64,000 bases of DNA from Mesostigma viride (taxonomy: Eukaryota; Streptophyta; Mesostigmatophyceae; Mesostigmatales; Mesostigmataceae). The first letter of the stretch is position 1, and every line of letters starts with the position of its first letter. The notes beneath the pieces were generated by a model. That model saw nothing but the letters and a program-made list of their open reading frames with translations, made no database searches and had not been told where the DNA came from. A program made the translations under genes and the position numbers. The stretch covers positions 1,609,192 to 1,673,191 of the forward strand of contig RPFO01000246.1 of assembly GCA_009746045.1 (NCBI GenBank), in the 5' to 3' direction. This document shows, one piece after another, positions 4,755 to 61,843 of the stretch.

Positions 4755-7700
4755 ATGGCATCAGCGGCAGCAGGCAAGAAGTACGGCAGCGCCGGGAAGC
4801 TATTCGTAGGCAACCTGGTCCCATCAGCCACTGAAGGTGCGTTACCTGCTAGGTGGTAAAGCGCCCGAATGCAGCCCTGTAATTTTTCGTATCTGACGCT
4901 GCCCGCTGCGATTAGAAGAGTTTGGCTTAAACAGCTCGACTAGCGTTGTAAAGTGCAAATATAGGCTGTATGCGAAGTGGAATGCGCTGCGTAGGGCAGC
5001 GCCCTGCTAAAACTACAGCACGGCAAGGCTGCAAGAGAGGTAAAACGTGATTTCATGCGTCAACGTTGGAAGAAAAGACAGCTCGTTCGGCTCAATCTGT
5101 GTTTAGGTATCCTTTCCTCACGATGATTATTGTAATTTCCGTCACAGTCTTTTTCTCACGAGACCCATATTGTTTTCAGGGGTCCGCCCTGAGGTTGCCA
5201 TGCACATGGGTACGAATGCTGGATTATGGCCACTGCAATACAAGCACCCATGGCTTGAGGTCACGTGTTCTCAGTGCTTTCAAGGAATTCAATAGAAATG
5301 CCTGTGGGTGCCCTGTCCTGCTGATGCATCACAGGGCCCTCATTCGTGCTGCTTATGAAGTTGAAGTTTTGAAGTACTTCCTCTTATGGGATGGGCAAAA
5401 TAGATATTACAGCAAGAACAGTAAAACCAAGCGGGGTATTACTCGCTGCCAACAAACTGGCCTCTGGCTCTTATATGCTATCTACCGCTACCTAGCCAGT
5501 TGCAATGCTCCGACAACTGCAGTCATGGCGGGCAGCAAGAGAGTGAGTGTGGCATCGGAATGCCGGCCTGCATGCCTGTTTACAGGTGGCTGGCGGCGGT
5601 TAGGTATTACTTAGTGGCTCGTCCTAGTAAGCGATGCACTCCCGGCCATCTTTCTAACAGTGCCCTTCTACATATTCGGGGCCTCGATGGGATTTCCATC
5701 GCTCGACATCAAGGGTGGGTTCAGGCTGTTCCTGTGTAGAGACTAGTGCCGTGCCTCTTTGGGGGCCCCATGCGCGGAACAGCGTGGCCGTGCCGCCATG
5801 TTGGGGCATAACGAAGTACTTGGCATAAAGGAGCCCTTGTGATATGAGCTAACGAGCAGCACTTGGCATAAAGGAGCCCTCGTGATATGAGCTAACGAGC
5901 AGCACTTGGCATAAAGGAGCCCTCGTGATATGAGCTAACGAGCAGCACTTGGCATAAAGGAGCCCTTGTGGTATGAGCTAACGAGCACCACTTGGCATAA
6001 AGGAGCCCTTGTGATATGAGCTAACGAGCAGCACTTGGCATAAAGGAGCCCTTGTGATATGAGCTAACGAGCAGCACTTGGCATAAAGGAGCCCTCGTGA
6101 TATGAGCTAACGAGCAGCACTTGGCATAAAGGAGCCCTTGTGGTATGAGCTAACGAGCAGCACTTGGCATAAAGGAGCCCTCGTGATATGAGCTAACGAG
6201 CAGCACTTGGCATAAAGGAGCCCTCGTGATATGAGCTAACGAGCAGCACTTGGCAAAAAGGAGCCCTTGTGATATGAGCTAACGAGCAGCACTTGGCATA
6301 AAGGAGCCCTTGTGGTATGAGCTAACGAGCAGCACTTGGCATAAAGGAGCCCTCGTGATATGAGCTAACGAGCAGCACTTGGCATAAAGGAGCCCTTGTG
6401 GTATGAGCTAACGAGCAGCACTTGGCATAAAGGAGCCCTTGTGATATGAGCTAACGAGCAGCACTTGGCATAAAGGAGCCCTTGTGATATGAGCTAACGA
6501 GCAGCACTTGGCATAAAGGAGCCCTTGTGATATGAGCTAACGAGCAGCACTTGGCAAAAAGGAGCCCTTGTGATATGAGCTAACGAGCAGCACTTGGCAT
6601 AAAGGAGCCCTTGTGATATGAGCTAACGAGCAGCACTTGGCATAAAGGAGCCCTCGTGATATGAGCTAACCAGCCCGCGCGGCAGCTTTTGAGAAGGTTG
6701 ACTTCCCAATGCCCAACGGAGGCCTGCGTGAGCAAGTGAATGAAGGAATGAACAGCTCTGGTGAAGCACTTGAAGCAGCCAGGCCCTTCTCTTTGCAGCC
6801 ATGCGGTTGGCATGGCTTAGGTATGCCATAGCAAGGGTGCCACGTACCCATGGATTAGAGTCATAGGAATTTATGGAAGTGCAGCAGGGTCAGGGCGTCA
6901 TGGGGTTGAACCCTCATTGCCGTCGGCTTACGGGGATGGATGAGATTTTGGTGTTTGGTGCTGCGGTTCACGGGCAGGGGCAGGGTTGGGCGGATTTTAC
7001 CGTTCTTGATGATTGTGTAGGCCATTCCAAATGGCACTGTTGGCGTGGCTGGATGCTGCCCCATGGCCAGTACTGCGCACACATTAGGGGGGATGCCCTT
7101 TTTAGCAGACAACCAGTAGACAAGCAGCCTCGATATCCCGGTGACCTCTATAACGAGCCCTGCGTGGATGGGGGCAGCTTTTTCGTGTAGTGGTGGTGGG
7201 GATGAATGGGTTGTTCATAGCGGCGGTGGGGTGGATGCCCAACAACATGAACGTGGGGGCAGGATGAAACCCAACCCACCAAGGTGGGCGCTAGCTTGCA
7301 GGCAGGTGCAGGGGTGGCCATGCACCTGGTATGCTATGCGCCAGCCGCATGACCAACCCGCCAGGCAGGCAGACTTGGCCATGAGTGAACCCGCAAGGAT
7401 GGCCAAAATTTGGAAGGAAACGCCCGCCGTGCCATGTGCTGGCGTCCCTGGGGTTCGCCCCAGCTTGTGGACCTGGCCGCCATTGGTGCAACTCCCTCAG
7501 CTTTTTCTGTCAGAACAGCTTTTCGCTGACATCTTTGTCCATTGCTGGAGGTTATGTCATGAGGCCGATGGCGGTGCCTCATTCTCGTCGGTGGCCCTGT
7601 AGTCCGCGGTGTCAAGTTTGATGCTCTTACCATCTTTCCAGGTATCCTCATCCCCCCTGCCCGGTGATGGTGTGGTAAGCCCTGTCTGTGCCATAAGCCC

Positions 7701-10700
7701 TGTATTGTTGGAGTCCATGGCCGCCCCTTGCCCATAGGGCTATGCCCCTCCCAGGTCCCTGACTGTTACCCTTCCAGGTGCCCAACTGTGACCCTCCCAG
7801 GTTACCCCTTGTGCCCTTCCCCGTTGCCCACTTGTTCCCCACTTGAGCCCTTCCCAGCGGTAAACTTGCCAGGCTCCTAACCATGACCCTCCCAGGTGCC
7901 CAACTGTGCTCCTCCCAGGTATCCCACTCATGTTTTGCACCTGCCGTATTGTAGGCCACCCCACGCATGTTCACCTGGCTATGCTGCAATTTTTCTGGCC
8001 AATGCACTTCCCCACGGTCAACTGCGTTGGGGGCGGCAGGGGAGTTACGTGCGCTCTTCTCAAAATATGGCGAGGTGGCAGAGTGTATCATCCAAAAGAA
8101 AGATAATCAGCCCAGGGGCTTTGCCTTTGTGAGAATGGACTTCAAGCACAGTGCGGAAAAGGTTGGTTCTGCCACAATGTGTGGCTTGAAAAGGGATGAA
8201 GCCAAGGGGGGTGGGGATTGGGTTTTGAGGATCAGTAGTTGACGGCCATGTTGGGAAGTAGTACGTTAAAGCTATCGCCAGCATGCCACCCCTCAAATGC
8301 CGGTATCTGTCCTGGAACAGCTTGCAAAGGCAGAGGCCTGCTGTTGCTAATGTTTTTTGCAAAGCGTACACGGCCAGTTTGCATAGCCTGGTATTTGATT
8401 GTATATACCGATGGTGGAAAGCATAGTTGTTTAGGGCCTTTTTATTTTGCTAGTTTTTGTCGTTGTGGATGGATTCAGCTGTGAGGTAGCATTACTGGCA
8501 GGCTTGGCAACATGGTCAACAATTGAGCCTTAGCGCTAGGCAGCTGGGTGCTGCTCAACACACTAGGGAAAAAGTTACGATCATGCCTGGTCGGTGCTGA
8601 TTCAGTCTTTTTCTGTCAGGCCTGCTTAGGGCAGGCCATGCTAGTTAGCTTGTTGATGCTGCCCCCGCTCAGCACACCGAAGAACCTGCGTTTCTAGTGG
8701 ATTCTCCTATCAATCCTCGGTGTCCAGGTGTCTGTCGTTTATGGTAGGTCTTGAGTTGCATTTTTATGTAGGATGATGATGCATTTTGGCACGAGAAACT
8801 TAACACCTTTTTTTTCTTTTTTTTTATGTGAGTCCCGCTCTACAAGGTTGTACTTATCACCCAGTTCAGTAGGGTCAGGTGCATTGCTCAGGCCTGGGAA
8901 AGGAAGGCGGATAAGAGCATGGAGGGGTTGCGCATACCCACACCGCTGGCAGTGTCGGTAGGGGGCTGTTATGGGGGTAGGCGCCAGGCGCGGCAGGTCT
9001 TGATGCCCAGAGCTCCCAGTCGCCGTGGCCTTGCCATCTGCAGGTGATGTGTCCCTGGTAGTGCTTCATGAGCCAGGAGCATTTCAGTGTGTCAGCGTGT
9101 GTGGCATTTGGGTAGAGTGGTTCTCCCATTCTGTGGACAGGAAGGGGGCCAGGGCAGGGCATGGGATTGCCTGGGAAGATAGGTTGTAGGCTGACCCCAG
9201 GCGTAGCCATGAGGACTAGGACCGGCCATCACAGCTGCTGTGGGAAGCAATTTGTTTGGCGTTGGCGCACGTATCCTGCGAGCGAGACAACGGATGTAAG
9301 GACATTGAATGGGGCATAAGAAACAGGGCATGAGAAACAGGGTTCGCAAACCTGCAAACAAGGGAATGAAGATAGGAAACACGATGCAGAGAAAGAGATG
9401 CACACATGGTGGTTTCTAGTGCGGCGGAATGTGCGTTGTTGGTGCACTGCCAGCAATCCAGCGGCGCCCATCACCATGACTGGCGGCTAGTGGAGTGGGC
9501 ACAAAGCTACTAGATGGGGATTTTTCAAGATTTTTTTTGCCTGACCAGAGGCTGTGCGGTTTCTTGAGATTGTCCTTGCCACTGGGAGATTCACTGCTGC
9601 GCGCATGGCCTAGGTAAGGCCCTGCCACGGTCACGACTGGGGTACGATATGGTTCATAAAAAGCACCCCTTGCAGCTGATGTCAGCATGTCAGTGATTGC
9701 ACGCTGCGGGCATGCACATGGTGTGGGGATGCCCCAACTTTACCATTCGCAACGCCGGGGTGGCTATGATGTCCATCCTCAAGAGTGGCCGGCAAGGTGA
9801 AGTCCCTAGGAAGGTGTTTACTGTCGGCCATGTAGGACAATCGGGGGGGGGCGCCACCTAGTTGCTTGCACGCCTTGTGGAAGCATGTAGCCTGGATGAT
9901 CATTTTTGTGTTTCTTATTTGCGAGTTTTTTTCACTGGTCCCTATCGGTGGTTCACGCAAGGAGCCAAGCACATAGCCACCTTCTGGCTGCAAGCCATTG
10001 GCTGCCTTGCGCACTCGCTGGATTAGCACGTCCGCGCTAGTGAGTTGGGTAAAGTAGGCAGCCTTAGCATGTCATCAAACGCTATGGGGCCACGATTTAT
10101 GGCACAACCTTCGGGAAGTAAATTCATGTCCCTTGAGCGCAACTTGCCCGCCCAACGCAGCCCATCCCCAAGTCATGGGAGGTGGGTGCATGCGATTCAT
10201 AACAACTGATCGTGGATGTGTTTGTCTCTATTTTGTGATGTGATGTGCTGCCGGGGTGCGGCCCTGCGCCTGTGGCCCAATCTGCCACCTGGCGCGCCGG
10301 CGTGCTTGGTCTGCCACTGCTTTACTCATCCCGGCGCGGCCGTGGGGTGGGTGGCTGGGTGATGTCACCTGGCGTGACCCTTCTCCCCGCGGGCTCGGGA
10401 CCGACGCCAGGCCAGGGACGAGCTCAACGGCAAGCTCTTCAAAGGTATTGCATGCTTTGTTTAGGCGCACAACCCTAGACTCTACAGCCTAAACCTTCAA
10501 GCCTTGCCTCTTCATTTATTTTATTCTTTATGTTACTTCATCCTATTCCCAACGTCGCATGGTGGAAAACGCCAAGCCAAGCATGACACCCCTGTGCCTA
10601 CCGCACCGATGTGCCTGGACCTGGTTGTCTTGCATCCGACTTGTGCTTGCCGAGGAGGGGAAGTGTAGGGGGGTGGCAGGCGTCCAGTCTCGCTCCGTTA

Positions 10701-13700
10701 GGCACTGCCGCTGCTGGACCGCGTGAACCCTTGCTGGTCATGCTTGCAGATGTCATCTGGGTACTCGGGATCATGCCACCTGTCACCACCCTTTGTCTGT
10801 CCCTCTGTTCCTGGATGTGAGCTTCGTTGTATGTACGAGAGCTGTGTAGCTTGTGTGTCTGACTGTTTGTGCGTGTGTTTCTTCATGTTTGCTTTGGAGA
10901 CGCAGCGTGCGCATCCATAGACATGTCTGCGCATGCCTGGAAGCCCTGCCCTGTGCCGTTTTTCCTCACGATTTGCCTCTCCTGTCTATACACGTGTTCA
11001 CAGCAAGGAGTGCCCCTGCCATACACAACCACTACCCGTGTGCACCACGTGTCGTGCAGGCAAGGAGCTGCTTGTGCGCAAGGCCATCAACAACGCAACC
11101 ATTTGGGTGGGGGACCTCGGAGGAAACGTCACCAACGAGGTCCTCGCGGTGGGTACGGTCCCGCCACCTGGCGGCTTTGGAATTATTCTGCAAGTACATC
11201 TCTTCCTAAGAAATGCTGTTTAGCGATATACTGGCCCGGCGGCCGCATCTCCTGAGTATTTTCTTTCTTTTCTTTCCTGTACTTTCTTGAGTGTACCTCC
11301 CACCCGCTTCTTGACTGCGCGAGGTTGCTCACATGCGCCGCTTCTCTCCTATGCTCCATTTCTTTGCGCTTCCGCATCTCGCGGTTGGCTCTCCTGTGGT
11401 GCTGGGGACGTGCAGGAGGCATTCTCCCAGTTTGGTGAAGTTGAGAAAGCGGTGGTGGTGACTGACCCACTGACAAAGAGGTGGGCCAGGGGGGGGTGCT
11501 AACGGTTTATGTGTCTTGGCCAGAGGGCGTCCCTCACTCGAGGAGTCATTGCGGGGAGGACATAGTCAGCGCTGGGCTTACGAATCGGTGCTGGGTGATG
11601 GATGGGCTGATAGGTATTCCACAAGTCTTTGGGAGTAATCACTTTTGCAAGGCATGCGCTGTTAGGCCATGCTGCATGGGCCATGTCGCAGTGTCTTTTA
11701 TATTTGTAATGGTCGTGGAGCATACTGGGCGGGTGCGCTCTGCTATTCGAACATGTTCCTATCATGGCTCTTGTGACGCTCTTGCGGTGCTGCAGGCGGC
11801 ACAATGTGCACCATAACCATGTGGCTGCTAATCAGTTTCATCAGCAGGTAGGGAGAGGGGAGGATGGATGGAAAGAGGGAGCGCGGCCGGGCATGGCATA
11901 GGCATACTTGTTTTTGGTGGGTTGGTTAGCTTTGAGGGGGGGGGGGGGGGGGGGGGGAAGCGCCACGGATGATGCTGGAAGCCACGTGCAGCTGGCGGAC
12001 GCACGAGCTCACTTGCCTGGTCTGCCCCGCGCCCCTGCCTGACCCCCTTGTGCATGATCCCTCGATTGTTGTGCGCATCCCACACCACCTCTGTCTCTTC
12101 ACCACCCTGCATCTTCCATGGGAGCGCCCTAGTGCGATGCGGCTAATGCAACCGGGGGGTGTGCTTCCTTGTTTTTGTGGTTGAGCCGGGGAGCAGGTCC
12201 AAGGGCTATGGCTTTGTGGAGTTTGCCAAGCGAAGCGTCTCGGCACGAGTGCTGCAGGTGGGTGAGGGGGAGGGGGGGGGGGGTGATGGGGGAAGGGGGC
12301 CAGGGGGGGCGTGCGGCAAGGCGGGCGTTCTGCGTCACTTTGCTAGAAGAGTTTTGGAGGGAACGTGGAAGCGGTGGTGTGTACCTTGTGCTTAGTTTTG
12401 TTGCGATTGCCGTTGCAGGGGGCTGCCACCAGTGGCCTTATGCTATCAGCCACCCATGCCCCAGCGCTGTGGATGCATGCAGAATCCGTACTGGTAAACC
12501 CTTGGCTTGGCTTCCGCGCACGTCATGGCCGCGCACATGACGTTCGCCTTTCCCGTTCACCATGGACTCTCCACTAATGGTTGCATGCGCCCCCTATGTC
12601 CGGACACACGGGGTGCCTGCTGTGATCGCACCCCCACACACTCGCTCGCGCATGTGCCCGCCTCGTATCCCGTCGCACTACATGTCCAGGCGTGCACAGA
12701 GCAGATGTTCCTCATTGGCGGCTCCTGCCGACCCGTGCGCGTGGACACGGCACAGCTGGAAGACGACGAAGTGGGTGACAGTTGCCAGCAGGCGACACTT
12801 GGGACCAGCCCACAATGATCACTTGTTGTTCTAGAAACATGTTGCCAAGCGGAAACTGACAGGGTCTCGTTCCTGGTCGTGTCATAGCAACTGGCTTTTG
12901 CTTTCATGGCATGCTAGTGGGGTGGCTGCCTATCTTGACAACGTGCCCAGTCTGCGAGGGTGGTTGCTCAGCGGAATGGCCACCTGCACGCACTTTTCTC
13001 GTGCGCACAAGAACAGTCCGCAAACCGCTTGGCGAGGGTTGTGTAGAACGTGGTTGTGCAGTGGGGTTGTGGTGGCAGCAACAGGTCCAATGCGGTCGAC
13101 TCCATGGTGTGCGGGGAAGCATATCGGAACGTCTGCAGTGTATTTTATAATGTCGACATTTCAGCACTTCTTCTCCTGACGGGCATGGTTGAGCTGGTCG
13201 CTTGGAGGCCTGTGCGCCATTGGCTAGCGGTATGGATGGATGCATTGCCACCGTTTGGCTGGTTGGCTGACCATTCTGCCTGACCATTCTGCTGCAGTAT
13301 GGTCTGGCGTGTGCCCACCTGCACACGGTCGCCCTCTTTTTGTGGCCTGTGGGGGTAAATGTATGGGGTGAGGCACACCCACAGCCTTCACATTTCTCTG
13401 CAGCAAATAATAATAAGAATAAGAATGGTTAGGATAGCAAGTAATATATTACTGCTGTGCTCACCTGTGGCTCCTATTTCATATTTTTGCAATTGCATGG
13501 CCGCTTTATTACGTAAGCCTATATCTGGAATCAAGTCTGGCTGTTGCTGCCAATCCTTGGCAAGTACAGCCCTGGTGCTTGCCCTTGCTGACTGTGGCAC
13601 GCTCACGTGTGCTTGCACGTGCTGTCCCATCATCCTATGCCCGCCTGCCCATGCGCCTTCAACAACATCCACCTCGCCGCCCACTTGATGATTTCTTCCT

Positions 13701-15165
13701 ACAACAACAACCTGTCGGCATCCACAGGAAGGGCTCTCGGTGAAGGACATGCAGCCGGCGCAGCAGCGCATGTTGTCGCAGCTATCGGTGAGTGTGTGTG
13801 TGTGTGTGCCAGCAGCGGCGCATGTTGTCGCAGCTATCGGTGAGTGTGTGTGTGCCAGCAGCAGTGCATGTTGTTGCAGCTATCGGTGAGTGTGTGTTTG
13901 TGTGCCAGCAGCGGCGCATGTTGTCGCAGCTATCGGTGAGTGTGTGTGTGCCAGCAGCAGCGCATGTTGTCGCAGCTATCGGTGAGTGTGTGTGTGCCAG
14001 CAGCAGCGCATGTTGTCGCAGCTATCAGTGAGTGTGCGTGTGCCGTGCATGCGCTTTCATGACCGCATTTCTTTAGACTGGCCATCAACGTTCTGAGTCT
14101 CCATGTGCCGCGTGCCGACGGCATTCCCACGTGACATTGACTGCTCATCACAGGGCGTTTGGAGCCCCAGTGTTGGCTCTTGTGTTTCTTTTCCTGCACT
14201 GCGGACGCCCGCAAGCCCTGGCAAGCCTTGGACGCTGACTTGCGACTGTTTGCCACACTATCGACATTGTCGTTCTCGCACGATCGATTTTGTTGGTTGG
14301 CCATGCTGGCGGTCATCCATGGTGGCGGACATCGCCCCCAGGCCCCCGCCCACTTCTCCCAAGCCAACACGCTCGAGTTTGAGTTCTCTCTTAAGTGGAA
14401 GCACCTCAGCGAGAAGCATAAAGCAGAGAAGGCAGAGCTCAAGGAGGTGAGCGCAAATCAGCGCAGCGGCAAGAGTTGCTAGGGCCATGCTGTTCAAGGT
14501 GGTACACTGGAGGGCGAATGGAAAGTGTTCATCGAGGGGGCCATGCCTTATGGGATTCGGGGGCTTCAGTGACAATGCGCACTGGTCATTTAGTCCATGC
14601 TTGAGGGGTGGCGTGCCAGGATTATCCCGGCGGAAGAAGATATAGGCTTTCGGGTTGTTGATTCGAAAGGATCGCCCCTCTCGTGGGCATCCAGCAAATA
14701 CCCCACACGGAAGGTAGGGGCAGGTACACATGGCACCGTCTGGTGAGCCATGGGTATTTTCCTGCATGCATGCATGCATGCCTTCTTTCCTTGTCATTAT
14801 TGGCGCAGGTTTCTGGGAGGTGCAAAATGTCCCCTTGATAACGGGGCCCCAGGAAATACCACATGTGGCGGCGGAAGCGAGCCCTATGCTGGCAACTGAC
14901 TCTCCTGCTCTCGGTTTTCCCCACACGCTGGCACCCAACTTGCTGCCCCACGCGCTGGCACCCTTCTTGCTGCCCCACGCGCTGCCACCATATTCCATAC
15001 CAAACCTGTTTGCGTGTGCAGCGCCACGTGACGGAGGAGGAGCAGCTGCAAGCAGAACAGGAGCGGGTGCTGAGGGAGGAGCGCACGCGGCAGCAGCAGA
15101 TGGAGGCGGAGATGTGGGTGATGGGGGGCAGAGACGTCTTCTTTTCTTTATGTTTTTATTTATTT

Positions 15166-15198
<33 letters not shown>

Positions 15199-18100
15199 GG
15201 AAAGAGGAGGACATGGGTGCAGCTAGCGCCGTGACTGTCCACAGTTGCTTTTTTAACTGTAGCTAGCGCACATGTTTAGATATAGCAGACAATGCATTTT
15301 CAGTTAAGAAACACGTTCAGACAACTATGACATCCTGATACCGTATCTGTTGGTAGCATTACGGCCCACCTGCCGTACGGCGCCTGCTGCCATCCGTGCT
15401 TGCGCTCATGGCCATACCACCCATTAGTTTGATGGGGCACTGTTCTCTAAAATCATGCCCTGTGCGTGCGCGGAGGGGTGCATATAGGCATAGACATGTC
15501 GAACAGGCACGTAGACAGGGACTGGTTTTCTAGAAGTATCGGGCCATGGTAAATGGGTGTCCCTCGCATGGGTTTTGTGTCACATCCCAGGGTCACCCTG
15601 TGCCATCTAGCCAGGGTGTGTTCCGGCAATTTGTTGAGTATTCGCATGCCTTCCTGTCTTTGGCAGGCATGTCATTAGCCAATGCAATGCCGTGCTTGTG
15701 GCAGTGGCTCACAACAGGACGCGACTTCTCTGGCACATCCCCCCTCGTGCGCCAATATGCCAGGTGCCGCCACGTAGTGAATTTGGGAAGTGGTCGCCCT
15801 GCAAGCGGACACCCCTGTTCCTCCATGCCAGCACTCTCCACCGAGCTGCGTAGAAATCATGTTACTTTCCTTGGGGCATCTTTTGTGCGAGGCCGTGCTG
15901 CTCATGTCTCCTCCGTTGGGGCATCTTTTGTGCGAGGCCGTGCTGCTCATGTCTCCTCCGTTGGGGCATCTTTTGTGTGAGGCCGTGCTGCTCATGTCTT
16001 CTCCCTTGGGGCATCTTTTGGGCGAGGCCGTGCTGCTCATGTCTCCTCCGTTGGGGCATCCTTTGTGCGAGGCCGTGCTGCTCATGTCTCCTCCGTTGGG
16101 GCATCTTTTGTGCGAGGCCGTGCTGCTCATGTCTCCTCCGTAGGGGCATCTTTTGTGGAGGCCGCGCTGCTCAGGTCTTCTCCCTTGGGGCATCTTTTGT
16201 GCGAGGCCGTGCTGCTCATGTCTTCTCCCTTGGGGCATCTTTTGGGCGAGGCCGTGCTGCTCATGTCTCCTCCGTTGGGGCATCTTTTGCGCGAGGCCGT
16301 GCTGCTCATGTCTTCTCCCCACCCGGGATGCGGCCACCCCTGCGCGCAGGGAGGCGCGGCGTGCGGCTCAGCGGCAGGCGATGGTGCAGGAAGAGCTGAT
16401 GAGGGAGCGCATGCGCGCCGCCAAGGAGATGGCGCAGGCGGAAGCATTAGCGCGAGAGCGGGAGCTGATCGCCATGGTGAGGGCAATGGGAAGGCTGGGG
16501 GAGGGTGGCGCGGGGAGGGGAGGAAGGGGGGGATGATGGAAGGGTGGAAAAGCGGGAAGGGGGGGGGAAGGGGGGGGGAAAGGGGGGGGAAGGGGGGGGA
16601 AAGGGGGGGGGGGAAAGGGGGGGGAAAGGGGGGGAAAGGGGGGGAAAGGGGGGGGAAAGGGGGGGGAAAGGGGGGGGAAAGGGGGGGGAAAAGGGGGGAG
16701 AAGGGGGGGGGAAGGGGGGGGGAAGGGGGGGGGAAGGGGGTGGGGGAAGGGGGGTGGGGAAGGGGGTGGGGGAAGGGGGTGGGGAAGGGGGTGGGGGAAG
16801 GGGGTGGGGAAGGGGGGGGAAGGGGGGGGGAAGGGGGGAAAGGGGGGGGGAAGGGGGGGGGAAGGGGGGGGAAGGGGGGGAAGGGGGGGGGGGGAAGGGG
16901 GGGAAGGGGGGGGGAAGGGGGGGGGAAGGGGGGGGGGAAGGGGGGGGGGGGGGGGGGGGGAAGGGGGGGGGGGAAGGGGGGGGGAAGGGGGGGGGGAAGG
17001 GGGGGGGGAAGGGGGGGGAAGGGGGGGGGAAGGGGGGGGGAAGGGGGGGGGAAGGGGGGGCTTCTAGGGAGGAGGAAGGGGAGAGAGCCAGGCTTGAGGG
17101 AAGGGAGTGGGCGAGGGGGGCTGCGTCTAACATGGTGATGTGCGAGACAAAGCCGCGAGTTTCTCGTGTCTGTGGGGGAGGGCAGCAGAGGCGCGGTTTG
17201 CTGGGTGAGTGTGGGAGTTTGTTCATGCAAACAATCAAGAAGATGGGATGGAATTGGTTATGCATGGATGTGCCACCCGTGCCTGTCCGCATTTTGTGCC
17301 ATCCGTGTGAGGAACACGGGCCGCTTGTCCCACCCAGCATATTCCAAGCTATAGAACACCTGCACAGGTGGTGGCAGGGGTTCGGGCACCTGGAACTGCC
17401 CCTTGTCCAGCTTAACCGCCCCTTTACACCCCCCAACCCCCCAAACCCACCCCGGTTTATTGCTTTCCCATGCGTGGGCAGCAGGAGCAACAACGCATGG
17501 AGCGAGCCCACTTTGAACGGCAACAAGAGATGCTTCTCGCTGGGGGGGGCGGCGGCATGGGAGGGGGAATGGGCATGGGTGCAGGCCCAGGGTTTCGGAG
17601 GGAAATAGGGGGCGGTGGGCCCCTGCAGGGAATGCGGGCCATCCCAGTGGAGCCGTTCATGCCGATGGGGGGGCCGTCTGGGCCAGGGGGCGGCATGATG
17701 GGCGGCAGGGGTGTCGGCGCGGGTGGACCACCGATGATGGGGGCTGCATCTGCCATGGGCGCGGGTGGCATGGGTGGCGGTGGCATGGGCGGCGGTGGCA
17801 TGGTAAGCAGCCATGTGGTACCCCGGCCCGATGGGTTTCGAGCAAAGAGAGATTTGTATCAGTTGAGACTTGAGCTACGTTGACTGCCGGGAGTTGTTGT
17901 GTCATGAGCTTGGCACGTGGGTGTCCAGCTAATGGGGTTGTGATACAAATGAGTTCTACCAGAGGACCATGTGTGCCTGCCCTGCCGGTGCTGGTCAAGG
18001 GATCCCACATATCCCCTCTTCCCCCGCCCGCCCTTTGATGGGGTCATAGGCTGGTATATGTGGCCTGGCGGATGCCATCTCCCCGACATGCCCTGGGTCC

Positions 18101-20532
18101 TCATGCATACCCTGGGATCCCTCAACCTTGGCCTTATGCCCATGCGGTTGCGGGCCCCTGCGCAGGTAGATGTTTGTTTAGGTCCCTGCCATCCGCCACC
18201 TGTCCTAGTGCATGCGCACTCACCAGTCGCCTCCTTTGTTTATGTATCAGGGCAGTGTGCCTCACTCCTTGGCAGCCCGCTGGACGCCGCATGTGCTCGC
18301 TACTGATCGCAAGGCAGCCTCGTTGCTTTCTCGTTGTTGGTGGTGTCTGGTTTTGCCCGTGTGTGTATGATTTCGCGGGGGTGGGATCGGGTTCTGGTAT
18401 CTGGCCGGCTGGTATCTGGATCGACCTGCTTGTACCTAACATGGCCACTAAATTGTTTACCTGCTTGTACATAACATGTTCGCTGTATGGTTGACCTGCT
18501 TGACCTAACGTGGCCGCTAAATGGTTGACCTGCTTGTATCTAACATGGCCGGTGCATGATTGACCTGCTTGTACCTAAGATGGCTGGAAATGGTACCCTG
18601 CTTGTACCTCACGTGGCCGCTAAATGGTTGACCTGCTTGTACCTAACATGTCCGCTAAATTGTTGACCTGCTTGTACCTAGCGTGGCCGCGAAAGGGACC
18701 TGCTTGTACCTAACATGACCGCTAAATGGTTGACCTTCTTGTACCTGACATGGCCGCAAAATGGTTTACCTGCTTGTACCTAACATGTTCGCTAGATGGT
18801 TGACCTGCTTGTACCTAACGTGGCCGCCAAGCTGTGATCGGGTTGGATCATTTTTGTGTGTGTGTCCCGCTTCTGTGTGCGTGTGCAGGGGCGCGGCGGG
18901 TTTGACCCCCACCAGCAGATGAGGCTGCGGGAGCAGCAGCTGCGCGAGGAGCAGCAACTGAGGGAGCGGGCAATGCAGATGCGCGGGGGGGGGGCGATGG
19001 TGAGTTCCCGCTGGTGTAGGATGTGCTGCATGCAGTCGGCCACATTGCAGGTGCTAGTTTTCCTGGCTTGCGTCTGGCTTTTTAAATGATATCTGCAGCA
19101 CTTCCAGCACAATTTAGGTCAAGTGATTAATCACAGTTCGCATCTTGCAGGTTGGCTACTTATAATTTTGCAGGTTAGGAAATGCGAGCGTGGGCAAGTG
19201 TTTGGTCTACCTGGCAGCCAACTTGACGGCATGGATCCCATGTGCCTTAGCGGGAAACCATGGTGGACTTTGGGAAAAAAGTTCAACCCTTTTATAAGTT
19301 TTGTCTACACTGGGGGCCTTTGGGATGTTCTCTCTAACCTGGAACTGGAGAAGGGGGGGAGGAAGGAGGGAGTGAGAGGTAGGAAGGATGGGCGTTCATG
19401 GCGGTAAGTATATGAGCTTGGTTGACAATATCCGCTTGCTATGCGTCTCCTTTTGGGGAGGTCATGCCCTCGGCATAGCCAAAATTGTGGGAAGCTGTGC
19501 ATAGGGTATCGGTGAAATATCAGGGCAACCTGGCTGCACCGTTGCGCCTCACTGGGTGCAATAGAATAAGAGGTTAGGGACCACCTGCAACCACAGTAAC
19601 GAGACAACCTGCCATCAGCCTGAATGTATGTGGACCTAGCCATTGGTAGCAGCAGCATCTATTTCTGCGGGTCATTGGGGATGGATTGTCTATGGAAGAG
19701 TGGGGTATATGTACGTACTTGGTGCCATGCACCGTAGTGGGGCATAGGTATGGAACGGTGGGGTATATGTACGTACTTGGTGCCATGCACCGTAGTGGGG
19801 CATAGGTATGGAACGGTGGGGTATATGTACGTACTTGGTGCCATGTAGTGGGGCATAGGTATGGAACGGTGGGGTATATGTACGTACTTGGTGCCATGTA
19901 GTGGGGCATAGGTATGGAACGGTGGGGTATATGTACGTACTTGGTGCCATGTAGTGGGGCATAGGTATGGAACGGTGGGGTATATGTACGTACTTGGTGC
20001 CATGTAGTGGGGCATAGGTATGGAACGGTGGGGTATATGTACGTACTTGGTGCCATGTAGTGGGGCATAGGTATGGAACGGTGGGGTATATGTACGTACT
20101 TGGTGCCATGCACCGTAGTGGGGCATAGGTATGGAACGGTGGGGTATATTTAAGCACTTGGTGCCATGCACTGTAGTGGGGCATACTTGGTGAAATACAC
20201 CCCCATACACAGACACGGCCGTGTTGCTAACATCTGGGCGACTTTCTGTGCATATGTTATGATGCCTCTGGACTCTCCAAATTTCTGGCGTGCGCTGGTT
20301 GTCTCATAGATATGTCACCATGTTACATAGGCATCTTGCTTTTCACATACCCATTCGACTTGCCCTTGTAGGCATGGCTTTTTAAAGGGGTGTCTGCTGC
20401 ATTTTTCCGTGCGTTTCTTGTGTGCATTCCGGTTTTCTGTTGGATAAAATGGCAGGGGCCACGCCGATTTTGATTCCTTCCTTTCAGCCAGGCTTGCCGA
20501 ACCTAATGGGGGATCATGTTCAAGAACTGTGA
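4755..20532 (+). CDS. DBHS-family RNA-binding protein (NONO/PSPC1/SFPQ-like), 14 exons, 464 aa
   Basis: Exons: 4755-4836, 8040-8161, 10411-10444, 11060-11148, 11416-11480, 12197-12257, 12690-12770, 13728-13787, 14342-14446, 15022-15113, 16350-16476, 17482-17802, 18889-18999, 20488-20532. All introns are GT-AG and phases are consistent. Domains in order: RRM1 (about 15-88; KLFVGNL, RGFAFVRM); RRM2 (about 92-168; IWVGDL, KGYGFVEF); NOPS (about 166-225; QLEDDEEGL, then FSQANTLEFEFSLKWK); a long charged coiled coil (about 225-330); a Gly/Met-rich region (about 330-412); and an Arg/Gln/Glu-rich tail. Animal DBHS proteins are nuclear dimeric scaffolds in transcription, splicing and paraspeckles; the same role here is inferred. 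Length is close to human NONO (471 aa). RRM2 keeps aromatic RNP residues that animal DBHS proteins mostly lack. The last, 15-codon exon is the least certain, and an extra exon in 19000-20480 cannot be excluded. Confidence 0.88.
5818..6670. repeat. 43-bp minisatellite in intron 1 of the DBHS-like gene
   Basis: About 20 head-to-tail copies of a 43-bp unit (ACTTGGCATAAAGGAGCCC, then TTGTGATATGAGCTAACGAG, then CAGC). Copies differ mainly by T/C and A/G transitions. The array lies wholly inside intron 1 (4837-8039). The rest of that intron shows no convincing exon. Confidence 0.95.
13761..14032 (+). repeat. Tandem copies of an exon-intron boundary (exon 8 donor)
   Basis: The end of coding exon 8 and its splice donor (GCATGTTGTCGCAGCTATCG followed by GTGAGTG) are repeated six times at spacings of about 45-49 bp. 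The first copy is the coding one, with donor at 13788. The five later copies (near 13810, 13857, 13906, 13951, 13998) keep the CAGCAG-GCATG segment, an intact GTGAGT and a (TG)n stretch. Confidence 0.9.
15871..16320. repeat. 45-bp minisatellite in intron 10 of the DBHS-like gene
   Basis: About ten copies of a 45-bp unit (TTGGGGCATCTTTTGTGCGA, then GGCCGTGCTGCTCATGTC, then TCCTCCG). The array ends about 30 bp before the acceptor of exon 11 at 16350, so it leaves little room for a normal branch-point region. Confidence 0.95.
16495..17062 (+). repeat. G-run polypurine tract in intron 11 of the DBHS-like gene
   Basis: About 570 bases of G runs (4 to over 10 long) separated by AA or AAA, with occasional T, on the coding strand. 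Nearly every segment could form G-quadruplexes or support R-loops. The overlapping Gly-rich and Pro-rich open frames are artefacts. Shorter G runs occur at 11937-11957 and 15178-15197. Confidence 0.95.
18425..18840. repeat. Degenerate ~35-bp repeat in intron 12 of the DBHS-like gene
   Basis: About twelve diverged copies of a unit containing GACCTGCTTGTACCTAACAT followed by GGCCGCTAAATGGTT. Length varies from about 30 to 36 bp. The array ends about 50 bp before the acceptor of exon 13. Confidence 0.85.
19690..20190. repeat. 53/58-bp minisatellite in intron 13 of the DBHS-like gene
   Basis: About nine copies of a unit containing GGGGCATAGGTATGGAACGG and GTATATGTACGTACTTGGTG. Two length classes differ by a 5-bp GCACC insertion. 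The terminal copies are the longer class and the central ones the shorter. Confidence 0.93.
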
Positions 20533-21210: not shown

Positions 21211-23520
21211 TAATTAAGTAATTAATTAGACTCGTGCTCCCGTTGGGGAGTCACGGAGCATTAACCCCGATGGATGGATGGGTGGGTGCAAACAGTCCTA
21301 CCGGTCTAAGCTATCTACATCAGCTACCTACGACATCTATCTAACAGCAACGAACTACATCTATCTATACAGCACGTGGCCCTAGGGGAGCTGTCTGGCG
21401 TGCCTCCCGTGGGTTTGCACACGCGGGCGCTTCCACACAGGGGGGGCTCGTTGTCCTCTATGACCTGGGCCCACTTGGCCTTGTCCATCATCTTCTTCCA
21501 AATCACGGAGAGGCCTAGGCCCCCCATGTCCTCTACTAGCTGTTCTTTGAAGGTGCGGGCCTTGCGGCGTCTAACATCAGGGGGCCCGGCCCACGTCAGG
21601 AGGTGCCGGCCAGGCTGAGCTGGTCGCAGTCCTGCGGGGGGGCCACGTGAGGTGTCTACCTGGTTGGTGCGAGCTAGGTGCCCTACTAGCTGCAGGCGCC
21701 GCTGCTTAATGGTGCTGGTGATATATGGCATGATGCATGATGGCAGGCCGCGTGATTTACACCTCGATCAGTCAGGTCGTACTGGAACAATGTCTATCTT
21801 AAGTACTAGTCTAGTCCAGGGTACGTACGGCCCTGCAGGCGGGCATGCCAGAGCAAGTAAGTACTTGCGTGTCATTAATTAATTAATTAATTAATTAATT
21901 AGACTCGTGCTCCCGTTGGGGAGTCACGGAGCATTAACCCCGATGGATGGATGGGTGGGTGCAAACAGTCCTACCGGTCTAAGCTATCTACATCAGCTAC
22001 CTACGACATCTATCTAACAGCATTACTAACTACAACATCGAGCTATACAGCACTGGCGTGCCGGCCTCCCACGGGCTTGCACACGCGGGCGCTTCCCCAC
22101 AGGGGGGGGCTCGTTGTCCTCTACGACCTGGGCCCACTTGGCCTTGCCCATCATCTTCTTCCAAATCACGGAGAGGCCGAGGCCCCCCATGTCCTCGACT
22201 AGCTGTTCTTTGAAGGTGCGGGCCTTGCGGCGTCTAACATCAGGGGGCCCGGCCCACGTCAGGAGGTGCCGGCCAGGCTGAGCTGGTCGCAGTCCTGCGG
22301 GGGGGCCACGTGAGGTGTCTACCTGGTTGGTGCGAGCTAGGTGCCCTACTAGCTGCAGGCGCCGCTGCTTAATGGTGCTGGTGATATATGGCATGATGCA
22401 TGATGGCAGGCCGCGTGATTTACACCTCGATCAGTCAGGTCGTACTGGAACAATGTCTATCTTAAGTACTAGTCTAGTCCAGGGTACGTACGGCCCTGCA
22501 GGCGGGCATGCCAGAGCAAGTAAGTACTTGCGTGTCATTAATTAATTAATTAATTAATTAATTAGACTCGTGCCCCCGTTGGGGAGTCACGGAGCATTAA
22601 CCCCGATGGATGGATGGGTGGGTGCAAACAGTCCTACCGGTCTAAGCTATCTACATCAGCTACCTACGACATCTATCTAACAGCATTACTAACTACAACA
22701 TCGAGCTATACAGCACTGGCGTGCCGGCCTCCCACGGGCTTGCACACGCGGGCGCTTCCCCACAGGGGGGGGCTCGTTGTCCTCTACGACCTGGGCCCAC
22801 TTGGCCTTGCCCATCATCTTCTTCCAAATCACGGAGAGGCCGAGGCCCCCCATGTCCTCGACTAGCTGTTCTTTGAAGGTGCGGGCCTTGCGGCGTCTAA
22901 CATCAGGGGGCCCGGCCCACGTCAGGAGGTGCCGGCCAGGCTGAGCTGGTCGCAGTCCTGCGGGGGGGCCACGTGATCATGAGGTGTCTACCTGGTTGGT
23001 CCGAGCTAGGTGCCCTACTAGCTGCAGGCGCCGCTGCTTAATGGTGCTGGTGATGTATGGCATGTCCTGGTACAGGTCCTCATTGCGGACATGAGCAGCA
23101 TATCCTACTCTGTAAATGGAACGCAGCATGTTGGTGACCGCGCCGTCCAGCTTGCGGGCCAGGTCGGCGGTGAGGGTCCACGTCTCGGCCCCATACGTGA
23201 GAACAGGAAGGACGAGGACCTTGAACAGGTCCTGTTTCTCGATCTTGCCCAGGGGCTTGCGCCACAGGGCCCGGTACTGGCGTAAAGCGTGCCAGGCGAG
23301 GGAGATGCGGTGGTCCACATCAACCTCGCAGCTGGGGAGCAGGCTGCCCAGCAGCTTGACGCGGTCACGATACAGGACTCGAGAGCCGTCGAAGAGATAG
23401 AGGGGCGGCGGTGAGTGGGTGAGCCCAACCGCCAGGGCCTCTGTCTTCTTGCTGACCTCAAGCCCCACTGCACGGGCCTCGATAGCCAGGCAGTCAAGCC
23501 ATGTCTGCCTTGCGTGTCAT
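21211..23520 (-). mobile_element. LINE (second family) 3' ends in tandem, with RT C-terminal region
   Basis: Three copies in direct orientation: about 21211-21882, 21883-22545 and 22546-23520. On the minus strand each encodes a post-RT tail (RRLQLVGHLARTNQVDTS, then LTWAGPPDVRRRKARTFKEQ and LSVIWKKMM). The longest copy adds KLLGSLLPSCEVDVDHRI and LTYGAETWTLTADLARKLDG upstream. Each 3' end carries the TGCTCCGTGACTCCCC/AACGGGAGCA hairpin and a (TTAA)n tail. The first two share the same ~150-bp 5' flank and are offset by exactly 663 bp, so they arose by tandem duplication. No copy is complete. Confidence 0.85.
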
Positions 23521-34052: not shown

Positions 34053-37000
34053 TCACTCCAGTGGGGGCACTTCGTCGTCGTCCACAAAGTCGTCTTCAGC
34101 CCCCGTTGCAGCAGAAGGAGCCTTCCGGGCCACCTCCTTAATCTGTGCAGCATGCGTGCACACAGCCATGAACATATTAACACAATTTCAACAAATAACG
34201 GGCCACATTTGTAATAAAGAGCGTGAGCGTGACTAACAAGCATGGCTCCGGTCATTGAACCACCCGATCGTTGACATGTGTCAATTGCTAATTCACAAAG
34301 CCAAAACTGTTCCGGCTTGTGCCGTGCAGACAAAAGCTCACGCAGCGCCATTCAACCCACGTGCATATCCATCCCATCCCAGCAAAATGTAGGCCATACA
34401 CGGACACCCTCTCTCGCCCAAAACACACTCATATCCAGAGGCAACGTTGGAGGGTGGGAGACAAGCACTGCTGGAGCTGCCGGCCAGTGCTCATTTTACA
34501 CTTTTTTGCACAGCCGGCCCCGCCCCGGCAACAAATGGCAGAAGCCGGGGGCAGGGAACAGCCGCCAGGTTCCCGGCGCTTGGGACCATATACCTGAGGG
34601 GACCCAAGGGCCCCGGGGAAATCGGATTTTGTGCCAGAAAGTCTTTTTGAGGGTCAGCTTGCCTCGCGCCGGCCACAATTTATGGTATCAGCCTTCAGAA
34701 GTTACCAACGTCGCAGTTCATCTTACAAGAAGGTGCAAGGAACTTACTGAACTTTCTAGCGCCGAAGTAATACTTGTCACCTACGGACTACCGACCTATA
34801 AGCACATTTTCCCCGCCCCGGCAACTATATGGCCTGCCGGTGCGCCGGCCCCGCCTCGGCAACTTTCCCGGCCTGCCAGGGCCGGCACCCCGCCGCCCGG
34901 GATCCCGCGCAGGGCCGGCACTAAAATGAGCACTGCTGCCGGTGGGTCTTGGTGAGGGCATGCTGGCCGTAGCATGCGCGGTAAGAATAAACGGTGGAGA
35001 GTCGCGGGCACGTGGTTGGGAGGATACAGGGGCGCATGCCAGGCAGACGTAGGGCGGTGCCCAGTATAAGTCACGCCCAGAGATAGCGAGAACCGTGATT
35101 TGGGGTCAGGAACCCTAGAAACGGTGATGGGTTAGGAGCCCTCACCTCGATGGTGGGTTCGGAACCCTAGACATGGTGATATGTGGGCAAGGGAACAGAC
35201 AGAATTGGATGGTTGGGAGTGCGTGGCTATCGATATGTGTCGCTCCTAGTGCTGTGGTGCTCCCTAATTGTTGGACTGGCTCTCCAGCATGCCTCCTGCC
35301 TGTCAGTCTGCTGGCCCTCACGTTTGTTAAAAAACTGTGCCCTCGCATGCGTCCATGTGAGCAGACACCAGCATCATCACCCTCACCGATGGCACTTAGT
35401 GGCCCTGAGTGCCTGCCACGACGGCCTGACAAGTGGTATGGCAGCAGCCAACACCAGTAAAAACCCTATCTGGACATCAGGCACGCACCTGCGCCGGGCC
35501 AGGGGCGTCCTCATCCCCCCCCTCCCGCTTCACCAAGTTGTGGATGGACACCGCTGCACTGCTGCTTGCCCCTTTGCCATTGCTGGCCGCGTGAGGTGCC
35601 GGCTTGGGAGCGCCTGCCTTCTTGTCGCCCGTGATGCCCTCATCTTGTGCTGGCGCCCGCTTGAGGAAAGAGATGTCCTGCGGGTCCAGCTTGGGCATGG
35701 TCACCACCAGGTGGCCCGTCACTTTGGACCGCTGCGCAAAGCTCTTGTCCGGCATGACCTGCCCAACGCGGCACCAACCGGGTTGCCCCGATGTCCGTAG
35801 GCAAAGTCCGTAGGACGACAAGTGGCAGAATCAGGAACAACCACCCATCTATTACAAGTTGTGGGGAAGGGGATAGATGAATTTGCAATAAAGAGGCGGT
35901 GCCCTGAAAGGCACACAGCTGTCATTGATGGCGCTTGGGGCTGTGCCCCAAAAGTGGCAGTTGAGCCGGAAATCGATGGCAACATGCTGGGAAGGGCCTT
36001 GTCAACACAAATCCTCTGAGACTGGACGGGGCGAGAGCCTGGCAGGCACCGTCAGCTTGTTGCCCACCTGCACAGTCACGTGCTAGCCAAAGCAATTGCC
36101 CCCAAAGCAAACCAGATGGCTCTGCTGGGTATAACCCGAACACCTCCCTGTGTCAGGTTGTGAAAGGCTGGAGTTAAATGCTTGTGATAATCACAGTACA
36201 AAATGTGAGGTATGTATGCTCAAATCTTCGCAATTTATCGCAACATCTCATCTTCGCAATTCATCAAATTAATTAACATATATGCTCTAACATGCAGGCA
36301 TGCAGATAATATTAACTTTGTATATTCTTCTGCCATCATCCCCTGATGACCTTCCAAGTCATCAGCTACCAGCACATGCACAACGGCGCAAGCAAAACCT
36401 TCCCAAGGTGCACCAATAACCACAGAGACGCCACACCTCACGCCCCTCTTGTACTTAATCAAAGATGCCCAGCGTCGCCCTCAGGCTCTTCAAGGCATCC
36501 GCCTCCCAGGCCTTGTACTCCACGCGGATGAAGCCCCCAAGCTGATGAAAGCACCACACCGATGGGAACTGCACACTTATGAACACGACGCGGCTCACCT
36601 CTTCGGGCAGCGCCAGCTGCAGCAGCCGCCCCTTGATGAGCACGCGCACCGCGTGGGGCTGTACGTCCACATCCAGCAGCGAGGTGTCCAGGAACTTGCC
36701 CACCGCCACGTCCAGCAGGATGCTCTTCCCGTCATGAGAGTCCAGCAGCTCAAAGTCCCACCTGCACAAACATGACAGTGAGGGCAAGGTGAGGGGGGAA
36801 AGGGGGTGAACCGGAGGCGCCATGGAGGGGCGCGGCGACCCGGCGGGGGGGGGGGGGGGGGGATGTCATTGATACAAATGTGAAGGATTGGGACTGTCAA
36901 AACCAAGATGTTCCGCACAGGGATATGCAGCGTTGACAGCAAGTTGGTGGGTGACACAAAGCAGCTCCCTGCAGTGCTACACACAACAGGCGCGTAAACA

Positions 37001-43000: not shown

Positions 43001-46000
43001 TACCGCTTACACGGCTATACAATTTGCAAGGCTATCAGATGAGCTTGCCTTCATTGCCTTGCTTCCTCACATGCGCGTCCAGGGTCATGGGCTCATGGTT
43101 GATTTCGTGTCCCTGAGAGTAGACCCTCCACAACTGTGAATATACACGCATCCGCTATGAGTATACCCGCGACCGTAGCAAGAAGACAGGAACAAGGAAA
43201 CATGCACAGACAGAATAAGAAACCAGGAGCAAGGGAACAGGGATAGACAGAATAAGAAACCAGGAACAAGGGAACAGGGATAGACAGAATAAGAAACCAG
43301 GAACAAGGGAACAGGGATAGACAGAATAAGAAACCAGGAACAAGGGAACAGGGATAGACAGAATAAGAAACCAGGAGCAAGGGAACAGGGATAGACAGAA
43401 TAAGAAACCAGGAACAAGGGAACAGGGATAGACAGAATAAGAAACCAGGAACAAGGGAACAGGGATAGACAGAATAAGAAACCAGGAACAAGGGAACAGG
43501 GATAGACAGAATAAGAAACCAGGAACAAGGGAACAGGGATAGACAGAATAAGAAACCAGGAACAAGGGAACAGGGATAGACAGAACAAGAAACCAGGAAC
43601 AAGGGAACAGGGATAGACAGAATAAGAAACCAGGAACAAGGGAACAGGGATAGACAGAATAAGAAACCAGGAACAAGGGAACAGGGATAGACAGAACAAG
43701 AAACCAGGAACAAGGGAACAGGGATAGACAGAATAAGAAACCAGGAACAAGGGAACAGGGATAGACAGAATAAGAAACCAGGAACAAGGGAACAGGGATA
43801 GACAGAATAAGAAACCAGGAGCAAGGAAACATGCACAGACAGAATAAGAAACCAGGAACAAGGGAACAGGGATAGACAGAATAAGAAACCAGGAACAAGG
43901 AAACAGGGATAGACAGAATAAGAAACCAGGAACAAGGGAACAGGGATAGACAGAATAAGAAACCAGGAGCAAGGGAACAGGGATAGACAGAATAAGAAAC
44001 CAGGAACAAGGGAACAGGGATAGACAGAATAAGAAACCAGGAACAAGGGAACAGGGATAGACAGAATAAGAAACCAGGAGCAAGGGAACAGGGATAGACA
44101 GAATAAGAAACCAGGAACAAGGGAACAGGGATAGACAGAATAAGAAACCAGGAACAAGGGAACAGGGATAGACAGAACAAGAAACCAGGAACAAGGGAAC
44201 AGGGATAGACAGAATAAGAAACCAGGAGCAAGGAAACATGCACAGACAGAATAAGAAACCAGGAACAAGGGAACAGGGATAGACAGAATAAGAAACCAGG
44301 AGCAAGGAAACATGCACAGACAGAATAAGAAACCAGGAGCAAGGGAACAGGGATAGACAGAATAAGAAACCAGGAACAAGGGAACAGGGATAGACAGAAT
44401 AAGAAACCAGGAGCAAGGGAACAGGGATAGACAGAATAAGAAACCAGGAACAAGGGAACAGGGATAGACAGAACAAGAAACCAGGAACAAGGGAACAGGG
44501 ATAGACAGAATAAGAAACCAGGAACAAGGGAACAGGGATAGACAGAATAAGAAACCAGGAGCAAGGGAACAGGGATAGACAGAATAAGAAACCAGGAACA
44601 AGGGAACAGGGATAGACAGAACAAGAAACCAGGAACAAGGGAACAGGGATAGACAGAATAAGAAACCAGGAGCAAGGGAACAGGGATAGACAGAATAAGA
44701 AACCAGGAGCAAGGGAACAGGGATAGACAGAATAAGAAACCAGGAACAAGGGAACAGGGATAGACAGAATAAGAAACCAGGAACAAGGGAACAGGGATAG
44801 ACAGAATAAGAAACCAGGAACAAGGGAACAGGGATAGACAGAACAAGAAACCAGGAACAAGGGAACAGGGATAGACAGAATAAGAAACCAGGAACAAGGG
44901 AACAGGGATAGACAGAATAAGAAACCAGGAGCAAGGGAACAGGGATAGACAGAATAAGAAACCAGGAACAAGGGAACAGGGATAGACAGAACAAGAAACC
45001 AGGAACAAGGGAACAGGGATAGACAGAATAAGAAACCAGGAACAAGGGAACAGGGATAGACAGAATAAGAAACCAGGAACAAGGGAACAGGGATAGACAG
45101 AATAAGAAACCAGGAACAAGGGAACAGGGATAGACAGAATAAGAAACCAGGAACAAGGAAACAGGGATAGACAGAATAAGAAACCAGGAACAAGGGAACA
45201 GGGATAGACAGAATAAGAAACCAGGAACAAGGGAACAGGGATAGACAGAACAAGAAACCAGGAACAAGGGAACAGGGATAGACAGAATAAGAAACCAGGA
45301 ACAAGGGAACAGGGATAGACAGAATAAGAAACCAGGAGCAAGGGAACAGGGATAGACAGAATAAGAAACCAGGAACAAGGGAACAGGGATAGACAGAACA
45401 AGAAACCAGGAACAAGGGAACAGGGATAGACAGAATAAGAAACCAGGAGCAAGGGAACAGGGATAGACAGAATAAGAAACCAGGAGCAAGGGAACAGGGA
45501 TAGACAGAATAAGAAACCAGGAACAAGGGAACAGGGATAGACAGAATAAGAAACCAGGAACAAGGGAACAGGGATAGACAGAATAAGAAACCAGGAACAA
45601 GGAAACAGGGATAGACAGAATAAGAAACCAGGAACAAGGGAACAGGGATAGACAGAATAAGAAACCAGGAGCAAGGAAACATGCACAGACAGAATAAGAA
45701 ACCAGGAACAAGGGAACAGGGATAGACAGAATAAGAAACCAGGAGCAAGGAAACATGCACAGACAGAATAAGAAACCAGGAGCAAGGGAACAGGGATAGA
45801 CAGAATAAGAAACCAGGAACAAGGGAACAGGGATAGACAGAATAAGAAACCAGGAGCAAGGGAACAGGGATAGACAGAATAAGAAACCAGGAACAAGGGA
45901 ACAGGGATAGACAGAACAAGAAACCAGGAACAAGGGAACAGGGATAGACAGAATAAGAAACCAGGAGCAAGGGAACAGGGATAGACAGAATAAGAAACCA

Positions 46001-61234: not shown

Positions 61235-61843
61235 GGTCCTAATTAACTCCAACGAGTGAATTGACACGAGGTAGAATGGTGCGGGTTTGACTGACCCGCA
61301 ACTAGAAAGAAATGACCACCCACCCCGCAAGTATTCGCATAAAATATTCACGGTATGTCGACTAGATTCCCCCCGATCGGCTGGTCAACTGCACATGGCA
61401 AGGAGAGGACAGTTAGTCCCCAGTAAGTTCATAATTCCATCTAGCATGCACCGCAGTCATGGGCAGGGGCGTCATCATTGGTCAACTGAAAATGAATCAC
61501 CTGAATTAGAGTATATACGACCTCAGCTAAGAAATGCTACATAATGGATGGGCTTGTGTTATGAGCACATGCTCTAAAGGAACCTACGAGCGATGGCGGA
61601 AGTCCCGAAGCGCTAGATAAGAAAGTATTGCCGCGCCTTGGAGAATAGTTGTCAGTTTGTTACGAGCACTCATAATAATTGTTGTTGTAAACAAGTACGA
61701 GCACCAAATTTTGTTGTTGTAAGTTGTAACAGTTGTAAACAAGTTGTTTAAGTTGTAACGAGCTTCGCAGTTCGCACAGGAATGAACTTGCTGCCGAGTG
61801 CTGTAAGCGGAACCACCCACACTTGCTGCCGAGTGCCGACTGC
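61235..61843. other. 5' flank of ATG16
   Basis: TTG/GTT repeats lie at 61675-61750. No gene or defined promoter motif is seen. Confidence 0.4.

Follow-up and report, generated by a model that had tools for sequence, protein, structure and literature searches.

A DBHS-family gene in the streptophyte alga Mesostigma viride suggests an RNA-binding scaffold older than animals

A 14-exon gene and its surroundings

The window described here is a 64,000-base stretch of the Mesostigma viride genome (contig C1424, positions 1609192-1673191; genome of 439,911,974 bases in 2243 contigs). M. viride is a unicellular green alga from the base of the plant lineage and is placed in Streptophyta by NCBI, which agrees with the alga-like host proposed in an earlier reading made from the DNA letters alone (the sequence-only reading). 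On the plus strand, we rebuilt a spliced gene from the sequence, which consists of 14 exons between positions 4755 and 20532 and encodes a product of 464 aa (Table 1). All 13 introns (mean length 1106 bases) are bounded by GT..AG, their phases are compatible, and internal stops are absent from the product. The exon number, the in-phase joining, and the product length are identical to those given by the sequence-only reading, and the two signatures that it had named, QLEDDEEGL and LEFEFSLKWK, are both found in the product.

Table 1. Exons of the M. viride gene, with the content of each and the evidence for it
Feature	Position	Strand	Content and evidence
Exon 1	4755..4836	+	Start codon, residues 1-27, RRM1 RNP2 (LFVGNL); inside the PSPC1 alignment; 3.1 bits alone (animal profile)
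Exon 2	8040..8161	+	RRM1 core with RNP1 (RGFAFVRM); RRM_1 match; 17.1 bits (animal profile)
Exon 3	10411..10444	+	34 bases, end of RRM1 (ARDELNGKLFK); GT-AG and phase; inside the PSPC1 alignment
Exon 4	11060..11148	+	RRM1-RRM2 linker, RRM2 RNP2 (IWVGDL), TNEVLA; inside the PSPC1 alignment; 4.3 bits alone
Exon 5	11416..11480	+	RRM2 (EAFSQFGEVEKAVVVTDPLTK); 17.6 bits (animal profile)
Exon 6	12197..12257	+	RRM2 RNP1 (KGYGFVEF); 9.2 bits (animal profile)
Exon 7	12690..12770	+	End of RRM2 and start of NOPS (RPVRVDTAQLEDDE); Pfam; 9.9 bits (animal profile)
Exon 8	13728..13787	+	NOPS (EGLSVKDMQPAQQRMLSQLS); Pfam; phase 0 at both ends
Exon 9	14342..14446	+	End of NOPS and start of helical region (APAHFSQANTLEFEFSLKWKHL); Pfam, PDB; 18.7 bits (animal profile); 21.5 bits (NOPS-only profile)
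Exon 10	15022..15113	+	Coiled-coil region; PDB alignments
Exon 11	16350..16476	+	Coiled-coil region; PDB alignments
Exon 12	17482..17802	+	Last part of the helical region, then the Gly/Met-rich tail; supported by an open frame and splice sites
Exon 13	18889..18999	+	Gln/Arg-rich stretch (HQQMRLREQQLREEQQ); splice sites and phase only
Exon 14	20488..20532	+	Last 14 residues and stop; splice site and phase only; least certain exon

As a control for chance, a profile built from the PSPC1 and SFPQ segments only (the animal profile) was run against the 2263 six-frame open reading frames (ORFs) of the window. Eight matches were obtained at E ≤ 10, seven of which are exons 1, 2, 4, 5, 6, 7, and 9 of the gene; these seven share one strand and keep the order of the profile, and the eighth, at 2.6 bits, is noise. 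Five of the seven (exons 2, 5, 6, 7, and 9) exceed 8.8 bits, the top score over 20 simulated windows, and a chance origin of the exon chain was rejected; exons 4 and 1 are individually below this maximum. Exons 3, 8, and 10 gave no separate match to the animal profile, and exons 11-14 lie outside its range. For exons 3, 8, and 10-12, the evidence consists of splice signals and phase, to which the PDB alignments add support as far as residue 311.

Two repeats lie inside the gene. At 13761-14027, the 3' end of exon 8 is present in six tandem copies of 27 or 30 bases, which encode QQRMLSQLS-like peptides. A GTGAGT donor stands behind every copy, and the copies are separated by GT-rich spacers of 19-22 bases. 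The first copy is the end of exon 8 itself and the other five are located in intron 8; competition among several donors could thus make the NOPS linker longer or change the reading frame. Intron 1 contains a 43-base tandem repeat (5818-6674, about 20 copies, 97% matches).

A Pfam scan of nine further ORFs from the window gave matches for three: two are ATG16-type pieces, and the third encodes the CS domain of DNAAF11 (dynein axonemal assembly factor 11). The ATG16 gene is located on the minus strand (56407-61384) and has several exons that encode an ATG16 domain and WD40 repeats; its N-terminal piece at 60917-61384 was recognized by eye and has no Pfam match. The CS domain is encoded by a minus-strand exon at 36455-36865 (3e-19). 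These matches fit a flagellate and are not specific to green algae. A plus-strand ORF at 49137-50090 has an N-terminus that by eye resembles a plastid transit peptide; Pfam gave nothing for it at E ≤ 0.01, and its PDB matches did not improve on E 3.2. A 37-base tandem repeat of about 77 copies occupies 43180-46013, and the three minus-strand open frames of 963-1065 aa found there are repeats rather than genes. Reverse-transcriptase-like ORFs, by eye of the LINE type, are found on the minus strand at 919-2552 and 21324-23516; the one piece scanned (1215-1838) has no Pfam match, and the ORFs around 21.3-22.4 kb are repeated with little change about 660 bases further on. Just downstream of the window (L091:1-960), a plus-strand ORF of 320 aa resembles by eye a DUF1295/steroid reductase-type membrane protein. 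The window gave no Rfam or tRNA matches.

Domain architecture and family membership

The product of the gene consists of RRM1, RRM2, a NOPS domain, a charged helical region, and a Gly/Met-rich tail; for the RRMs and NOPS, Pfam and the alignments bear out the order given by the sequence-only reading. DBHS proteins are described as having two tandem RRMs, a NOPS domain, and a coiled coil, and as forming homo- and heterodimers (PMC9177958). Pfam assigns RRM_1 twice (E 2.8e-36) and places NOPS (PF08075) at residues 166-218, where it covers profile positions 1-52 of 52 at 29.6 bits, a small margin over the cut-off of 27. The sequence-only reading had allowed that NOPS might score at background, and it scores above the Pfam cut-off over the full profile. 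In a search of PDB chains, PSPC1 aligned to residues 8-253 of the algal protein (4.8e-47, 164 bits), the NONO and SFPQ core chains matched at about 6e-44, and an SFPQ chain of 703 aa covered residues 8-419 (3.3e-52). NONO-1 of C. elegans (5ca5) has the same architecture and spans residues 7-251 (4e-37, about 131 bits). The top non-DBHS chain is a polyadenylate-binding protein (6r5k, 7.6e-22), whose best stretch is on RRM1.

The individual parts were also searched separately. When the piece containing NOPS and the helix was used alone, all 19 PDB matches at E ≤ 0.1 were DBHS proteins, ranging from 4.1e-10 (PSPC1) to 0.004 (NONO-1, the weakest). With RRM1 alone or RRM2 alone, the multi-RRM chain 6r5k ranks first as a whole chain because its several RRMs are summed. 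At the level of single stretches, RRM2 matches SFPQ RRM2 at 53.1 bits, as compared to 23.5 bits for the highest-scoring RRM of 6r5k and 11.3 bits for SFPQ RRM1. For RRM1, NONO is the best match having a single stretch under 1e-8, a threshold that no 6r5k stretch passes. From the NOPS score above the Pfam cut-off, the PSPC1 alignment to residues 8-253, and the exclusive matching of the NOPS and helix piece to DBHS chains of the PDB, we conclude on sequence grounds that the Mesostigma protein is a member of the DBHS family, which upholds the NONO/PSPC1/SFPQ-type identity originally proposed.

The algal protein is 41% identical to the PSPC1 segment and 37% identical to the SFPQ segment, and resembles PSPC1, NONO, and SFPQ in its order of RRM1, RRM2, NOPS, and helix. 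Residues common to the alga, PSPC1, and SFPQ include NE.L..AFSQFG, RPV.V, DDE.GL, and F.Q..T.E.E....WK.L, and invariant residues cross the RRM2-NOPS junction in the three aligned sequences; the shared WK motif presumably sits in the dimer interface. The helical region is long and charged and aligns with SFPQ as far as residue 311. In a simple periodicity test over residues 207-325, the value at the heptad period of 3.5 residues was 0.05 and thus formed no peak, as compared to 0.31 at 4.0 and 0.28 at 3.6. The tail comprises 139 residues, of which 49 are Gly and 19 are Met.

Several differences from the animal proteins are apparent. SFPQ has an N-terminal Pro/Gly/Gln region that the algal protein does not have, and the β2-β3 stretch of RRM1 is four residues longer in the alga than in the PSPC1 and SFPQ segments. 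Both algal RRMs carry a full RNP1 and RNP2 (Table 1). In RRM2, the algal RNP2 reads IWVGDL whereas the two aligned animal segments read LTVKNL and LSVRNL, and the algal RNP1 reads KGYGFVEF whereas the animal segments read GKGFVEF and GKGIVEF. The aromatics that usually contact RNA are thus kept in the algal RRM2 and missing from the two animal RRM2 domains compared, which suggests that the algal RRM2 probably has a normal RNA-binding face. This canonical RRM2 may be the ancestral state.

Two other families could in principle account for these features. UPF3A and UPF3B also have RRM-like, NOPS-like, and helical regions, which they have in common with the paraspeckle proteins, and their NOPS-like domain is conserved in plants and animals (PMC9177958). 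The same source describes the RRM-like domain of UPF3 as binding UPF2 and UPF3B as monomeric in solution. That the gene is the alga's own UPF3 is nonetheless extremely unlikely, as Smg4_UPF3 (PF03467) is not among the Pfam matches of the product at E ≤ 1, the protein has two RRMs, and UPF3 is absent from the 19 PDB matches obtained with the NOPS piece. In addition, a separate UPF3 gene is located on contig C1790 (L120-L122), where three exon-wise Smg4_UPF3 matches were found (best 37.4 bits). With this locus elsewhere and the UPF3 domain not found in the protein, the UPF3 identity was rejected. The other candidate is an hnRNP-like protein with two RRMs that has come by convergence to look like NOPS in its linker and helix. 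It would be compatible with the generic character of the RRM parts taken alone and with the small NOPS margin (29.6 bits against 27). We find this very improbable, because the NOPS and helix piece by itself reaches 4.1e-10 with PSPC1 and matches DBHS chains only, RRM2 matches DBHS RRM2 specifically, and the invariant residues run through the RRM2-NOPS junction.

Copy number and origin of the gene

The whole genome was searched with the first 326 residues of the algal protein, a query that weak or heavily split copies could escape. The search returned 17 matches, nine at the DBHS locus and eight elsewhere; all eight of the latter fall within query residues 5-150, which are RRMs, and no second copy of NOPS was seen. 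Thirty loci of the genome, 26 from RRM matches (some overlapping) and four from the window flanks, were then scanned as 7783 ORFs. The animal profile gave 56 matches at E ≤ 1, of which three extend beyond profile position 150 at 5.0-6.6 bits, i.e., noise. RRM exons elsewhere in the genome score up to 28.9 bits on this profile, higher than the exons of the DBHS gene itself, and RRM matches alone are therefore not diagnostic. The NOPS-only profile gave no matches across the 30 loci, and in the window it found exon 9 and one noise match of 4.9 bits. The Pfam NOPS model, run in six frames over the whole genome, gave no match in M. viride and none in 14 controls; the division of NOPS among three exons in this gene is the probable reason. 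From these searches, M. viride appears to encode a single DBHS-family protein.

Relatives were also sought outside the alga. Viral contigs gave five pattern matches and no relatives; when an alignment was used, the pattern matches rose to 40 and a single locus was found, covering RRMs only (query residues 10-139). In prokaryote genome contigs, a search seeded by patterns in RRM2 gave 309 pattern matches and 86 relatives; among the best 80 of the 86, none extends past query residue 178 and hence none covers NOPS (166-218). In a narrow literature search, DBHS proteins of plants or algae were unreported in the portions of the sources covered (PMC9177958, PMC3771687, PMC12063141, and PMC3676770); published reports may exist elsewhere, and proteins of this kind may already be found among automatic domain annotations.

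The sequence-only reading had left it open whether the scaffold predates animals or was transferred, and had raised animal contamination as a further possibility. The DBHS family has been described mostly from animals, which is the one point in favor of contamination or of a recent horizontal transfer from an animal. The gene lies, however, within a contig of 3,653,245 bases, and its mean intron length of 1106 bases is to be compared with the 1142 bases published for M. viride (PMC6947507). The alignment scores fit such an origin badly as well. With PSPC1 as the query, worm NONO-1 scores 244 bits and the NONO and SFPQ core chains score about 392-426 bits, whereas the algal protein as the query reaches 164 bits with PSPC1 and about 131 bits with NONO-1. 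The algal protein thus falls outside the vertebrate-worm pair, as expected for an outgroup, by a comparison of scores rather than a tree and with the proviso that worm sequences may evolve fast. Contamination or recent transfer is accordingly highly unlikely, and the original alternative narrows to descent or an old transfer. For the latter, from another eukaryote, one can point to the distribution of the family, which would be patchy, with an early-diverging streptophyte that has it and land plants that are not known to have it. No donor is indicated, and the gene has 13 introns and resides in a large contig, so that we consider an old transfer rather unlikely. The data suggest that the DBHS RNA-binding scaffold is older than animals. 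A more specific proposal, for which we regard the odds as roughly even, is that the complete DBHS protein predates the split of animals and green plants, with the single Mesostigma gene keeping the canonical RRM2 aromatics and the animal form, with its degenerate RRM2 and its paralogues, being derived.

A putative nuclear scaffold without paraspeckles

DBHS proteins have been studied as paraspeckle and transcription scaffolds of animals. Our favored reading, to which we assign a probability of about 0.78, is that the algal protein is an old homodimeric, nuclear RNA-binding scaffold that descends from a pre-animal DBHS gene and works without paraspeckles. By homology, two copies would dimerize, with each NOPS arm packing on the RRM2 of the partner and the helices behind NOPS pairing, as in the packing of the known proteins; a homodimer is proposed because only one DBHS gene was found. 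Two RRM1 and two RRM2 faces would be left free to bind RNA, and the composition of the Gly/Met-rich tail would suit multivalent contacts. Most likely, the dimer would be nuclear and would couple transcripts to splicing or transcription factors. The nuclear localization signal of DBHS proteins is placed in the C-terminal part by one source (PMC12063141). A pattern scan of the algal protein for nuclear signals found KRSK at residue 130, inside RRM2, and a bipartite-like stretch at residue 267, and none in its C-terminal part.

Paraspeckles are not implied by this proposal, since NEAT1 is listed as mammal-specific in the table of one review (PMC3771687), and the paraspeckle role with which the family had been introduced in the sequence-only reading is unsupported for the alga. 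What we describe is a member of a known family, found in a lineage where it was not expected; its phylogenetic position, its apparent single copy, and its canonical RRM2 are the surprising points. If the assignment is true, a complete, single-copy DBHS gene in an early-diverging streptophyte would put the origin of the scaffold before animals, and prompts one to ask why the family was lost from land plants, where no DBHS protein is known. Mesostigma would offer a NEAT1-free system for testing the basic function of the DBHS dimer and, if the pre-animal reading is true, the algal protein would show what the job of the scaffold was before there were paraspeckles.
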